This document shows, one piece after another, positions 51,076-55,070 of a DNA stretch of 55,707 nucleotides (its first letter is position 1; each line of letters starts with the position of its first letter). Below the pieces are notes generated by a model that was given only the letters and a program-made list of their open reading frames with translations, did not search any database and was not told where the DNA came from. Origin of the DNA: Rhodobacter viridis (GTDB taxonomy: Bacteria > Pseudomonadota > Alphaproteobacteria > Rhodobacterales > Rhodobacteraceae); the NCBI RefSeq assembly GCF_003217355.1, contig NZ_QJTK01000018.1, positions 1-55,707 of the forward strand, in the 5' to 3' direction. The translations under genes were made by a program, and so were the position numbers.

Positions 51076-52593
51076 ATGCTTGATCACCTTGCCTTCACCG
51101 CCCCCGAACCGAAAGTCATTGCCGGCGCGAAAAGCGACTGGGAGCTTGTGATCGGGATGGAGGTGCACGCGCAGGTGGCCTCGAATGCGAAGCTGTTCTC
51201 GGGCGCCTCGACGACCTTCGGCAACGAGCCGAACGCCAACGTCGCCTTCGTCGATGCGGCCATGCCCGGCATGTTGCCGGTGATCAACGAATTCTGTGTC
51301 GCCCAAGCCGTGCGGACCGGGCTGGCGCTGAAGGCGGGCATCAACCTGCGCTCTGCCTTCGATCGCAAGAACTACTTCTACCCCGACCTGCCGCAGGGCT
51401 ATCAGATTTCGCAGCTTTACCATCCGATCGTGGGCGAGGGCGAGATCATCGTCGACATGGGCCCGGGCGTCGCCCGCAAGGTCCGGATCGAGCGCATCCA
51501 CCTGGAACAGGACGCGGGCAAGTCGATCCATGACATGGACCCGACGATGTCCTTTGTTGATTTCAACCGCACCGGCGTCGCGCTGATGGAAATCGTTTCG
51601 CGCCCCGACATTCGCGGCCCGGAAGAAGCCGCCGCCTATATCGCCAAGCTGCGGCAGATCCTGCGCTACATCGGCACCTGCGATGGTAACATGCAAAACG
51701 GCAACCTGCGCGCCGATGTGAACGTCTCGGTCTGCCGTCCCGGGCAGTATGAGAAATATCAGGAAAGCCAAGATTTCAGCCATCTCGGCACGCGCTGCGA
51801 GATCAAGAACATGAACTCGATGCGCTTCATCCAGCAGGCGATCGATTACGAAGCCCGCCGCCAGATCGCCATTCTGGAGGATGGTGGCAAGATCGTGCAG
51901 GAAACCCGGCTGTACGATCCGGACAAGGGCGAGACCCGCTCGATGCGCTCCAAGGAAGAGGCGCATGACTACCGCTATTTCCCCTGCCCGGATCTGCTGC
52001 CGCTCGAAATCGAACAAGCTTGGGTCGATGACATCGGCGCGACGATGCCGGAACTGCCGGATGAAAAGAAGGCCCGCTTCGTCAAGGATCTGGGGCTCAG
52101 CGAATATGACGCCTCGGTGCTGACGGCGGAAGTGGCCGATGCCGAGTATTTCGAAGCCGTGGTGGCCGTGGCCGAAGATGGCAAGCTGGCCGCGAACTGG
52201 GTGATCAACGAACTGTTCGGCCGTCTGAAGAAGGAAGGCCACGAGATCGGCCAGAGCCCGGTCAGCCCGGCGCAGCTGGGCGGCATCATCCGGCTGATCC
52301 GTTCGGGCGACATTTCGGGCAAGATCGCCAAGGATCTCTTTGAGATCGTCTATACCGAGGGCGGCGATCCGGCCGCGATCGTCGAGGCCCGCGGCATGAA
52401 GCAGGTCACCGACATGGGCGCGATCGAGACGGCGGTGGACGAGATCATCGCCGCGAACCCGGCGCAGGTGGAGAAGGCGAAGGCCAATCCGAAGCTGGCG
52501 GGGTGGTTCGTGGGGCAGGTGATCAAGGCCTCGGGGGGCAAGGCCAACCCCGCCGCGGTGAACGAGATCGTGGCGAAGAAGCTCGGGTTGTAA
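51076..52593 (+). CDS. gatB: GatB, aspartyl/glutamyl-tRNA amidotransferase subunit B
   Basis: 505 residues. Signatures: [72 protein letters not shown] and the C-terminal YqeY-like tRNA-binding domain. It transamidates mis-acylated Asp/Glu-tRNA with GatA and GatC, which are not in the window. A strong terminator follows. Confidence 0.97.
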
Positions 52594-52598
52594 GAGAA

Positions 52599-52626
52599 AA
52601 AAGGCGCTCCTTCGGGAGCGCCTTTT
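52599..52626 (+). terminator. Strong intrinsic terminator after gatB
   Basis: AAAAGGCGCTCC (52599-52610), TTCG tetraloop, GGAGCGCCTTTT (52615-52626): a perfect 12-bp stem. It insulates the accessory gene that follows from gatB transcription. Confidence 0.92.
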
Positions 52627-52631
52627 GGTTT

Positions 52632-52641
52632 GGGGGGGGGG
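52632..52641 (+). repeat. Ten-G homopolymer at the left edge of the AT-rich island
   Basis: An uninterrupted run of ten G lies between the gatB terminator and the Shine-Dalgarno of the accessory gene (ATTATC and TTTGCGG follow). Tracts of this length can slip during replication; here a length change would alter promoter spacing or the leader, not the reading frame. Confidence 0.6.
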
Positions 52642-52673
52642 CATTATCTTCTTTGCGGCAGGAGGTTTATCGT

Positions 52674-54095
52674 TTGTCTGGTCGGCCTTCCAACAAAGAG
52701 ATCCGTGAAGTAATCAGCTTTGTTCGTGGAGAGCTGTCTAGGTACCAAGAATTGTTGCGCGACTATAAGTCTTACGCTGAGGAAGTTAGGAAAGATGAGT
52801 GGCCATTTTTTGATTTGCCTCATCCAAACGGCTCTCGAAGGAAGATAGGTTCGCAAGCTTTTAGGAGACTCCAAAATCTAAGCCGAAAAATTGTTTCCAA
52901 TGATCCGCGCTTGGCGGGGAGGATGGAGAATGAAACATTTTTTAAACTATTTTCCCGAGAGGTTTCGGCTCAAATTTTTAGTGATGTCTGTATCGATGAG
53001 AGGCAGCTTGTCGAGTTCTGTATAACTAGTGCTTTGCAGGAGTGCATAGCTCCTAGAATACATTTTGTTCCTTGTGTGCTGCCAAACTACAGTGGGATTT
53101 CAAAATTTAGTATTGGTCCGGTTCGATTTTTTAAGAAAGACGATTTCTTTTCGGGAAAAATATGTGGCGACTTCATTGATTATTATGGTGATTTAGAGCG
53201 TGCAAAGGAATTCTATCAAAGACAGAATTGGGTTGCTTGCGTTGCTATTGATGGTTTCGATAAGAAGAAAGCGCAGGAACGCGCGTTTCTATTCGTAAGG
53301 CTTGCGATTGCATCCATAAAGGTCAAGCTGGATCAAGGCTTAGCCCAATGGTTGGGCACGGAGAGGCAATCATTCCCAAATTTGCGAAACTACTCGTTCG
53401 TTTCTGAATCAACTAATTTGGAGATGGGGAAGGTCGCATTGGGTTGGGGGCACAAATATGTTTTGAATTCGGGCAACAAAAGTGTCGAGCACTTGCGATC
53501 GGAGAGTTCGAGGGCTTGGTTTTTTCTTGTTGGGGCGTTTCTTGATAGAATTATTGGAATTCCTGATTGGAGTTTCTTGGAGTCAAAAATTGTAACCGCT
53601 TTGATTTGGTCGGATATTGGTGGTAGTCCAGTAAGCAATGCAGAGCGGATTGTTGCATTCTCAAATTGTTTAGAGGCATTGTTCGTCACTCACGAAAACG
53701 GCAAGAAGTCTCAATTGGTGGAGAGGTCGCGTTTGTTTTTGGAGTATGCGGGTTGGCGGCCTGATTATAACTCAAGAGTTTCCAATTTCTATTCTAAGAG
53801 GTGTGATATCGTTCACGGCGAAGAAATGCCGTTGCGTCCGGAGTTGAGAGAATTTGCAGAGGTTGGAAAGTACTTTTCAGATGTATGTGTGGAAGGGTTT
53901 GTGAACTTTGCCTACTGGTTGTTGATGAAGCATCGCGATGAAGGTACGAAGCAACACCTTAGACCCTTTAATGGGCGGAGCAGTTTTGACAAAGCAATGA
54001 GGGAAGAACTTCCCATCTTTTTTGAACGGTTGTCGTCCCCCTTGCACCCCACACCCCCAGCCCCTACTTTCCCGCGACACCCAAGGGAGACATGA
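52674..54095 (+). CDS. Accessory HEPN-domain protein, possible ApeA-like anti-phage RNase
   Basis: 473 residues from TTG 52674, chosen because AGGAGG (52660-52665) sits 8 nt upstream; the open frame extends further into gatB without a better start. The region is AT-rich: hand counts give 20/60 and 21/60 G+C on two sample lines against 44/60 in gatB. The C-terminal half has a helical HEPN-like part with RCDIVHGEE, that is R376-x4-H381, the catalytic signature of HEPN RNases; the flanking FSNCLEALF and NFYSKRCDIVHGEE resemble Apea-like HEPN proteins. The N-terminal 250 residues were not recognised. The last 20 residues (SPLHPTPPAPTFPRHPRET) come from GC-rich DNA. It abuts the DUF808 start. Inferred role: infection-triggered RNA cleavage. 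Confidence 0.7.
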   Translation: MSGRPSNKEIREVISFVRGELSRYQELLRDYKSYAEEVRKDEWPFFDLPHPNGSRRKIGSQAFRRLQNLSRKIVSNDPRLAGRMENETFFKLFSREVSAQIFSDVCIDERQLVEFCITSALQECIAPRIHFVPCVLPNYSGISKFSIGPVRFFKKDDFFSGKICGDFIDYYGDLERAKEFYQRQNWVACVAIDGFDKKKAQERAFLFVRLAIASIKVKLDQGLAQWLGTERQSFPNLRNYSFVSESTNLEMGKVALGWGHKYVLNSGNKSVEHLRSESSRAWFFLVGAFLDRIIGIPDWSFLESKIVTALIWSDIGGSPVSNAERIVAFSNCLEALFVTHENGKKSQLVERSRLFLEYAGWRPDYNSRVSNFYSKRCDIVHGEEMPLRPELREFAEVGKYFSDVCVEGFVNFAYWLLMKHRDEGTKQHLRPFNGRSSFDKAMREELPIFFERLSSPLHPTPPAPTFPRHPRET

Positions 54096-55070
54096 ATGAG
54101 CGGCCTTCTCGCCCTTCTCGATGACGTGGCGGGGATCGCCAAGATTGCGGCTGCCTCGGTGGATGATGTCGCTGCGGGCGCCGCGAAGGCCGGGGCCAAG
54201 GCCGCGGGCGTGGTCATCGATGATGCCGCCGTCACGCCGCGCTATGTGCATGGGTTCGAGGCCAGCCGCGAATTGCCGATCGTCGGCAAGATCGCCATGG
54301 GCTCGATCCGCAACAAGATCGTCTTCCTGCTGCCGATCGCGCTGATCCTGTCGGCCTTCGCGCCCTGGGTGATCACGCCGCTCTTGATGCTTGGCGGTGC
54401 CTATCTCTGTTTCGAGGGCGCCGAGAAAGTCTTTCACGTCCTCTTCCCGCATGCGCCGCATGCCGACAGCCATATCGACCCCGATGATGATCCGGCGGGC
54501 GACCCCGCGCATCTGGAGCGCGAAAAGGTCTCGGGCGCGGTGAAGACCGATTTCATCCTCTCGGCCGAGATCATGACCATCGCGATGGCCTCGCTGCCCG
54601 CGGGCGAGCCGCTCTGGATGCAGGCGCTGGCGCTGGCGGTGGTGGCGGTGGGGATCACCGTGCTGGTCTACGGCGGCGTTGCGCTGATCGTGAAGGCCGA
54701 TGACGTCGGGCTGTGGCTGGCGCGCAAGGGGGCGATCGCGCCGATCCGCTGGCTCGGGCGGGGGCTGGTGCGGGCGATGCCGCCGCTGCTTGCCGCGCTG
54801 TCGATCCTGGGCACGGCGGCGATGATCTGGGTCGGCGGCGCGATCTTGCTGCATGGCGCGGCGGAGCTCGGCTGGCCTGCCGTCTACGACACGATCCACC
54901 ATCTGGCCGAGGGGGCGGGGCATCTGTTGCCGGCAGGCGGGTTCACCGAATGGCTGGTCACCGCCGCCTGCGATGGCGTGCTGGGGCTGATCTTCGGCCT
55001 GATGCTGATCCCGCTCGCGATGTTCATCGTCGATCCGCTGATCCGGCTGGTGGGCCGCCTGCGCGGCTGA
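54096..55070 (+). CDS. DUF808/YedI-family inner-membrane protein
   Basis: 324 residues beginning MSGLLALLDDVAGIAKIAA, the family signature. Hydrophobic helices lie near 73-110, 160-180, 185-205, 230-260 and 285-315. Acidic loop with HPD-type HADSHIDPDDDPAGD. Function unknown; the E. coli homologue YedI is an uncharacterised membrane protein. The ATG directly abuts the stop of the accessory gene and its Shine-Dalgarno (AAGGGAGA) lies within that gene's 3' end. Confidence 0.85.
   Translation: MSGLLALLDDVAGIAKIAAASVDDVAAGAAKAGAKAAGVVIDDAAVTPRYVHGFEASRELPIVGKIAMGSIRNKIVFLLPIALILSAFAPWVITPLLMLGGAYLCFEGAEKVFHVLFPHAPHADSHIDPDDDPAGDPAHLEREKVSGAVKTDFILSAEIMTIAMASLPAGEPLWMQALALAVVAVGITVLVYGGVALIVKADDVGLWLARKGAIAPIRWLGRGLVRAMPPLLAALSILGTAAMIWVGGAILLHGAAELGWPAVYDTIHHLAEGAGHLLPAGGFTEWLVTAACDGVLGLIFGLMLIPLAMFIVDPLIRLVGRLRG

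Follow-up and report, generated by a model that had tools for sequence, protein, structure and literature searches.

From bacteria to animals, immunity has drawn repeatedly on HEPN RNases, and each new family of them may bring its own trigger-sensing part. The sections of PMC3710099 on the HEPN active site, a source that also deals with HEPN RNases in immunity, describe an R-x4-6-H motif at the end of helix 3 and an acidic residue in helix 2, together with the roles of the arginine, the histidine and the acidic residue. According to the title of a preprint cited in PMC13405049, ApeA is activated by deoxydinucleotides. PMC13092281 reports that a HEPN system consisting of one protein was validated in E. 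coli and that it no longer protects once its catalytic residues are altered. We envision, with moderate confidence, that a gene of Rhodobacter viridis encodes a one-gene defence RNase of the sensor-HEPN type, belonging to a new family distinct from ApeA and acquired horizontally as a cassette.

The window, that is, the whole stretch of DNA analysed here, comprises 55,707 nucleotides (positions 1-55,707 of the forward strand of contig NZ_QJTK01000018.1, assembly GCF_003217355.1). The candidate gene is present in a single copy in the R. viridis genome, and the ORF coordinates bear out its placement between a gene that we take to be gatB, the name also given in the original prediction, and a DUF808 gene (Table 1); the gene preceding gatB is presumably aminopeptidase-like. 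The interval proposed at the outset, 52640..54095, is right about the end of the frame, and the start sits 34 bases inside it, the likeliest start codon being a TTG with an AGGAGG eight bases upstream. The composition of the gene is foreign to its surroundings. Codons 1-452 have a G+C content of 43.6%, and GC3 is 44.7%, as opposed to 84.2% in gatB, 82.0% in the aminopeptidase-like gene and 88.0% in the DUF808 gene. Consistently, the three 500-base windows over the gene (43-50% G+C) are the sole ones below 59% in the 55.7-kb stretch. The gene is thus AT-rich relative to its neighbourhood, as had been proposed, at a level for which the proposed one-third G+C is too extreme; gatB, put near 73%, has an overall value of 62.4%.

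Table 1. Features of the candidate locus (positions in the window)
Feature	Position	Strand	Basis or remark
gatB (presumed)	51076-52593		upstream neighbour of the candidate gene
Terminator-like hairpin 3' of gatB; left edge of the hotspot	52599..52626	+	sequence and inverted-repeat scan
Inserted AT-rich cassette in the gatB-DUF808 interval	52639..54037	.	homology ends relative to G395, G396 and G397; G394 and G407 have no cargo here
AGGAGG ribosome-binding site, 8 bases 5' of the TTG start	52660..52665	+	read in the sequence
HEPN-type candidate gene, 473 aa: unassigned N-terminal domain and C-terminal HEPN-type domain	52674..54095	+	ORF; closest homologue begins at the same position
N-terminal family signature, C134 and FSIGPV145-150	53073..53123	+	alignments A4 and A7; C134, G148 and P149 in 11/11
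HEPN-type core, residues 300-420	53571..53933	+	profile match to HEPN-named proteins
E334, conserved acidic residue in CLEALF	53673..53675	+	family alignment (E/D in 11/11); nearly invariant in A9
R376-x4-H381 (RCDIVH), predicted RNase active site	53799..53816	+	11/11 family, 13/13 A9 rows
Host-derived ORF tail, about 18 residues	54038..54092	+	sister-genome homology resumes at 54038; closest homologue without a matching tail
DUF808 gene	54096-55070		downstream neighbour of the candidate gene; PF05661

The gatB-DUF808 interval is an insertion hotspot, in that the same flanks enclose an empty site or different cargo in relatives. The 3' end of gatB was found in 18 of 18 genomes of the genus, and in seven of these the DUF808 gene is next after it on the same strand. 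Two of the seven intact sites are empty (G394 and G407, with 115 and 114 bases between the two genes) and five are filled, with three kinds of cargo. The first is the cassette of the window, where the interval measures 1,502 bases at 45.1% G+C. The second, found in G395, G396 and G402, is a different lone gene on the opposite strand, in intervals of 1,407-1,435 bases and 43.5-44.8% G+C; it is frameshifted in G395, and in G396 it gave only a sub-threshold match to DUF7309 in Pfam and no match in PADLOC. This AT-rich gene of G396 (L007 1858-3009 (-)) encodes 383 residues and has counterparts in G402 (L018) and G395 (L005). The third kind, in G397, comprises two small frames (L006 522-1491 (-)) in an interval of 1,092 bases at 58.9% G+C; one of these frames has a sub-threshold ribbon-helix-helix match. 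In the window, G395, G396 and G397, the cargo starts just 3' of the gatB hairpin and stops just before the CTTGCACC stretch ahead of the DUF808 gene; the right cargo edge differs in G402, and inspection by eye revealed no target-site duplication. As to the hairpin, the scan places its inverted repeat on the - strand, and a T run is present on both strands. The DUF808 gene is farther away and inverted in five of the remaining 11 genomes, and was not found within the stretch retrieved in the other six. From a practical perspective, this site is a small, clean place to look for further uncharacterised cargo.

The candidate gene itself occurs only in R. viridis among the 18 genus genomes, and its family in two of 394 family-level genomes, R. 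viridis counted. The original prediction had seen a lone foreign gene here and had proposed a presence/absence check at the gatB locus. That check, giving one genome in 18, strongly supports the claim together with the composition (GC3 of 44.7% compared with 82-88% in the neighbours), the empty site and the other cargo in relatives.

To which family does the protein belong? It matches no Pfam, PADLOC or NCBIfam model at E<=10, and no fitting model was found for the family as a whole (Pfam, 11 of 11 members; NCBIfam, three members scanned; PADLOC 2023, four members scanned). Searched on its own as a single protein, it retrieved nothing from plasmids, phages or genome contigs. Whole-genome searches recovered a relative of about 42% identity in Pseudohalocynthiibacter aestuariivivens, one of 34% in G959 and one of 21% in G643, and the taxonomic family to which G959 belongs contains three more (present in 4 of its 199 genomes, counting G959). 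When relatives served as queries against plasmids, copies were found on two plasmids of Sinorhizobium meliloti and in Rhizobium leguminosarum, Burkholderia pyrrocinia and Gluconobacter sphaericus; the queries L002 and L051 found nothing there. Phages, queried with the window protein and with L026, yielded no family member, nor did viral contigs, and no sequence relative in the PDB was credible. Two matches were dropped along the way: one in G967, which covers 50 positions inside another gene on the opposite strand, and one on a Roseovarius plasmid (H4), beneath which there is neither an annotated gene nor a 250-codon frame.

The family alignment (A7) comprises 11 sequences with 14-41% identity to the window protein; the copy from M270 (L054) was left out because it is shorter than, and close to, that of L053. 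Pairwise BLASTP within the 11-sequence set links the window protein to its two closest members at 1e-130 and 4e-82 and to the distant ones at 2e-4 to 2e-10, except for L053, which is connected through L025 (3e-87, then 2e-6). Ten residues are invariant in all 11 sequences (C134, G148, P149, G287, A309, W312, L336, R376, H381 and G382), and position 334 is always E or D. The N-terminal domain found no relative outside the family, and the first 250 or so residues, for which the original prediction recognised no family, indeed match nothing in Pfam, PADLOC or NCBIfam. Searches of the open literature on HEPN and ApeA brought up no description of the family. The window protein is best read, as far as sequence comparison can tell, as belonging to a new family that is not catalogued in Pfam, NCBIfam or PADLOC.

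Neighbourhoods were examined at 12 family loci, and PADLOC was run on the neighbours of six. Matches lie near four of the 12 (L053, L054, L056 and L057; a raw count rather than an enrichment). A Gabija system and a retron-type RT are found near the family gene on pRmeGR4b of S. meliloti (L053), another Gabija near the copy on accessoryA of M270 (L054), and QatC-like, RmrA-like and PDC-S51 matches near the Rhizobium copy (L056). On pBPJTT of B. pyrrocinia (L057), a CBASS cyclase, E1-E2, JAB and a SAVED effector are nearby, and the annotated start of the family gene is some 300 bases past the JAB gene. In this arrangement (L057 4087-9056 (+)), the cyclase, E1-E2 and JAB genes precede the family gene on one strand and the SAVED effector lies on the other; the family gene is possibly an added effector. 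Mobile elements are represented as well, by a tyrosine integrase in G959, Mu transposase and MuB genes in G1310 and a serine recombinase in G1154. The G959 neighbourhood (L063) also gave a weak PDC-M54A match. It contains, in addition, a protein of 1,582 residues whose AAA match exceeds the cut-off and whose STAND matches fall below it (L063 2407-7152 (+)), and, beside the relative, a 439-residue protein that has no Pfam match and carries an R-x4-H of its own, RNELVH (L063 7424-8740 (-)). In Pseudohalocynthiibacter, a gene with a MauJ domain (PF17419, E 4.6e-22) starts 19 bases past the relative on the same strand; its product (L024 3957-5387 (+)) has an R-x4-H too, RCAIAH. One neighbouring gene of L002 was scanned with PADLOC and gave no match, and at two of the 12 loci, G643 and G1181, no defence or mobile gene was recognised by eye among the ORFs listed. 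Indirectly, the proximity of relatives to defence genes and mobile elements suggests an anti-phage role for the window gene. We take it as support rather than proof, because the plasmid-only collection that supplied five of the 12 loci favours mobile settings, and the counts are raw ones.

Alternatively, the protein might be the toxin of a toxin-antitoxin or addiction module, or the product of a selfish stabilising gene, instead of a phage-defence protein. The same five plasmid loci would fit such a role, and HEPN domains often act as toxins, as discussed in the relevant sections of PMC3710099. However, the window copy stands alone, the ORF list offering no second gene within the 1.4-kb cassette, the listed neighbours of the relatives vary from locus to locus, and the long N-terminal part is conserved, as it is in sensor-effector proteins. 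We consider a toxin or stabilising gene unlikely.

A second alternative is that the cassette is a decaying passenger, functionless in its present host strain. At its end the ORF now runs into host sequence: the part of the protein encoded by host DNA begins at about residue 456, ahead of the DUF808 gene. The scan for promoter-like sites found none on the + strand and two on the - strand, and the sister cassette in G395 is the frameshifted one; conceivably, the host tail or a missing promoter silences the gene. Yet the reading frame is open over its full length, the motif is intact and the ribosome-binding site is strong, and the promoter scan covered the sigma-70 consensus only. Decay of the cassette is accordingly improbable in our view. 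At 54093-54098, the TGA stop of the foreign gene directly abuts the ATG of the DUF808 gene; the inserted gene thus extends across the leader of the DUF808 gene, to which its translation may be coupled.

A third possibility, close to what the original prediction had suggested, is that the protein is a true ApeA (ApeA_NTD1 plus HEPN_Apea) that has diverged past recognition and works exactly as ApeA does. Its length is similar (473 as compared with about 454-480 aa), as is the order of its parts, a long N-terminal part followed by a C-terminal R-x4-H domain, and in both hhalign runs whose alignment reaches the motif, R376/H381 are laid on R397/H402 of ApeA unprompted. For comparison, we used seven plasmid relatives of the HEPN_Apea domain (A6) of 11 records found, three of which (L065, L066 and L070) carry PF18862 (6e-47 or better) and PF18739 (4.3e-31 or better) as controls. 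By contrast, none of the 11 family members matches HEPN_Apea (PF18739), or ApeA_NTD1 (PF18862) at E<=10. Profile comparison is not significant: hhalign of the family with ApeA gives E 0.11-0.42, and hmmsearch in both directions nothing better than E 0.04 (set of seven sequences). When the C-terminal family profile is searched over 2,119 ORFs, no more than two ApeA rows of the seven are listed (E 13 and 19). A 13-row HEPN profile (described below) scores 20.7 against ApeA in an alignment that misses the motif, a score reached by one of 100 shuffles, and the N-terminal parts match over 24 columns only (E 0.36). The surroundings of the motif differ as well, RNYLTHYD in ApeA and RCDIVHGE in the window protein. 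What does this failure mean? In control comparisons, one score of which may be stale, the match of ApeA to RiboL-PSP HEPN domains (10/12 loci) is reached by 7 of 50 shuffles and that to DUF4145 HEPN domains (10/10) by 3 of 50. ApeA thus matches other HEPN families no better than shuffles do, so that its failure to match the window protein speaks against membership, not against a HEPN fold. On the evidence of Pfam, hmmsearch and hhalign against the seven plasmid relatives, we reject ApeA membership, and even a strongly diverged ApeA is very unlikely.

A HEPN-type domain in a protein that is not an ApeA, in turn, finds support of another kind. In a protein of this composition, 0.86 copies of R-x4-H are expected by chance, and the motif alone is therefore little evidence; its invariance in all 11 family members does count. 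The residue directly after the R376 equivalent is S, T or N in nine of the 11, C in the window protein and G in L002. The bridge to proteins named HEPN is provided by a relative on the Dolichospermum plasmid pAfl69, which is split into two separated frames and annotated as two genes (L031 2848-4342 (+)). Its C-terminal piece (WP_168697604.1) bears the NCBI name 'HEPN domain-containing protein', matches the window protein at 1.7e-6 (11-sequence set) and retrieves ten further plasmid records, some of them almost identical; itself included, 11 of 11 features are named HEPN. That name is NCBI's and is not confirmed by Pfam or NCBIfam models. We compared six of the ten records (L072-L077), which were thus picked via Dolichospermum and not via the family profile. 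When the C-terminal family profile is run over 2,119 ORFs (the retrieved loci and the window), the 12 family rows rank first, followed by the Dolichospermum HEPN-named piece (2.4e-14), all six HEPN-named proteins (8e-7 to 0.0046) and the other Dolichospermum half (0.065), after which background begins at 1.1 and upward. Likewise, hhalign aligns this profile with the six proteins at 96.6% (E 4.8e-10, score 65.8), a score that none of 100 column shuffles reaches (maximum 15.2). In the 13-row domain alignment (A9), built from pieces trimmed manually to the region of the motif, the only invariant columns are R and H (13/13), and L, E and G are nearly invariant. The R376/H381 numbering and the RCDIVHG of the original prediction hold with the TTG start, and its HEPN-type C-terminal domain gains support from R-x4-H and the acidic residue being kept throughout the family and from the significant profile match to the HEPN-named proteins. 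The motif and the acidic residue fit the account of HEPN proteins in PMC3710099.

Structure prediction, which had been proposed as a check, is uninformative on this point. AlphaFold2 models (input of two sequences) reach a pLDDT of 51.7 for the whole protein and 44.5 for the C-terminal part. In these low-confidence models (pLDDT 52 and 45), R376 is near a helix end and H381 in the following loop, and a helix 322-339 containing residue 334 is predicted in the model of pLDDT 52; the predicted helices agree with the HEPN description, at confidences too low to count. With the C-terminal model (pLDDT 44.5) as query, Foldseek found nothing in the PDB at E<=0.001 and no HEPN protein by title among the best 50 of 239 matches. 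That the R-x4-H is coincidental and the protein merely an unrelated helical one, for which its chance expectation, the poor fold models and the lack of a structural match might be cited, is the least credible alternative, because R, H and G are three of only ten invariant residues at such low identity, and the homology to HEPN-named proteins is significant and aligns the same columns.

How might a one-gene sensor-HEPN RNase act? We envision that the horizontally acquired cassette encodes a two-part protein in which the N-terminal domain of about 250 residues, with its C134/FSIGPV signature, would sense a sign of phage infection and hold the C-terminal HEPN domain inactive until triggered. Once released, the HEPN domain would cut RNA without a metal ion, probably acting as a dimer whose active site contains R376, H381 and E334. 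RNA cleavage would stop translation, such that infected cells might cease phage production. As a lone gene, such a system would be easy to move. On a broader reading we are evenly poised: the family may constitute undescribed one-gene phage-defence RNases that join a new sensor domain to a HEPN domain and are found on plasmids, in a Mu-like prophage and beside integrases. In this genus, the gene would then be one among several interchangeable single-gene cassettes, which take the one slot available to stray genes behind the gatB terminator.

How does this protein compare with known HEPN families? The HEPN-named plasmid proteins (L072-L077 and WP_168697604.1) share its C-terminal core, with the LE and R(S)xx(V)H columns; the profile hits only their C-terminal part and leaves the N-terminal parts unmatched, and they fall in no Pfam or NCBIfam family either. 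HEPN_RiboL-PSP (PF18735) aligns in register on R-x4-H (E 0.036, reached by 0 of 50 shuffles), and DUF4145 (PF13643) aligns outside the motif (E 0.065, 0 of 50 shuffles), neither being significant by E-value. Four HEPN systems from DefensePredictor (PMC13092281), DS-11 among them, were compared by description only, and one such recently validated system could be a relative. DS-11 differs in having a CBS domain, and, as described there, it resembles our candidate in being one protein that joins a regulatory domain to a HEPN nuclease domain.
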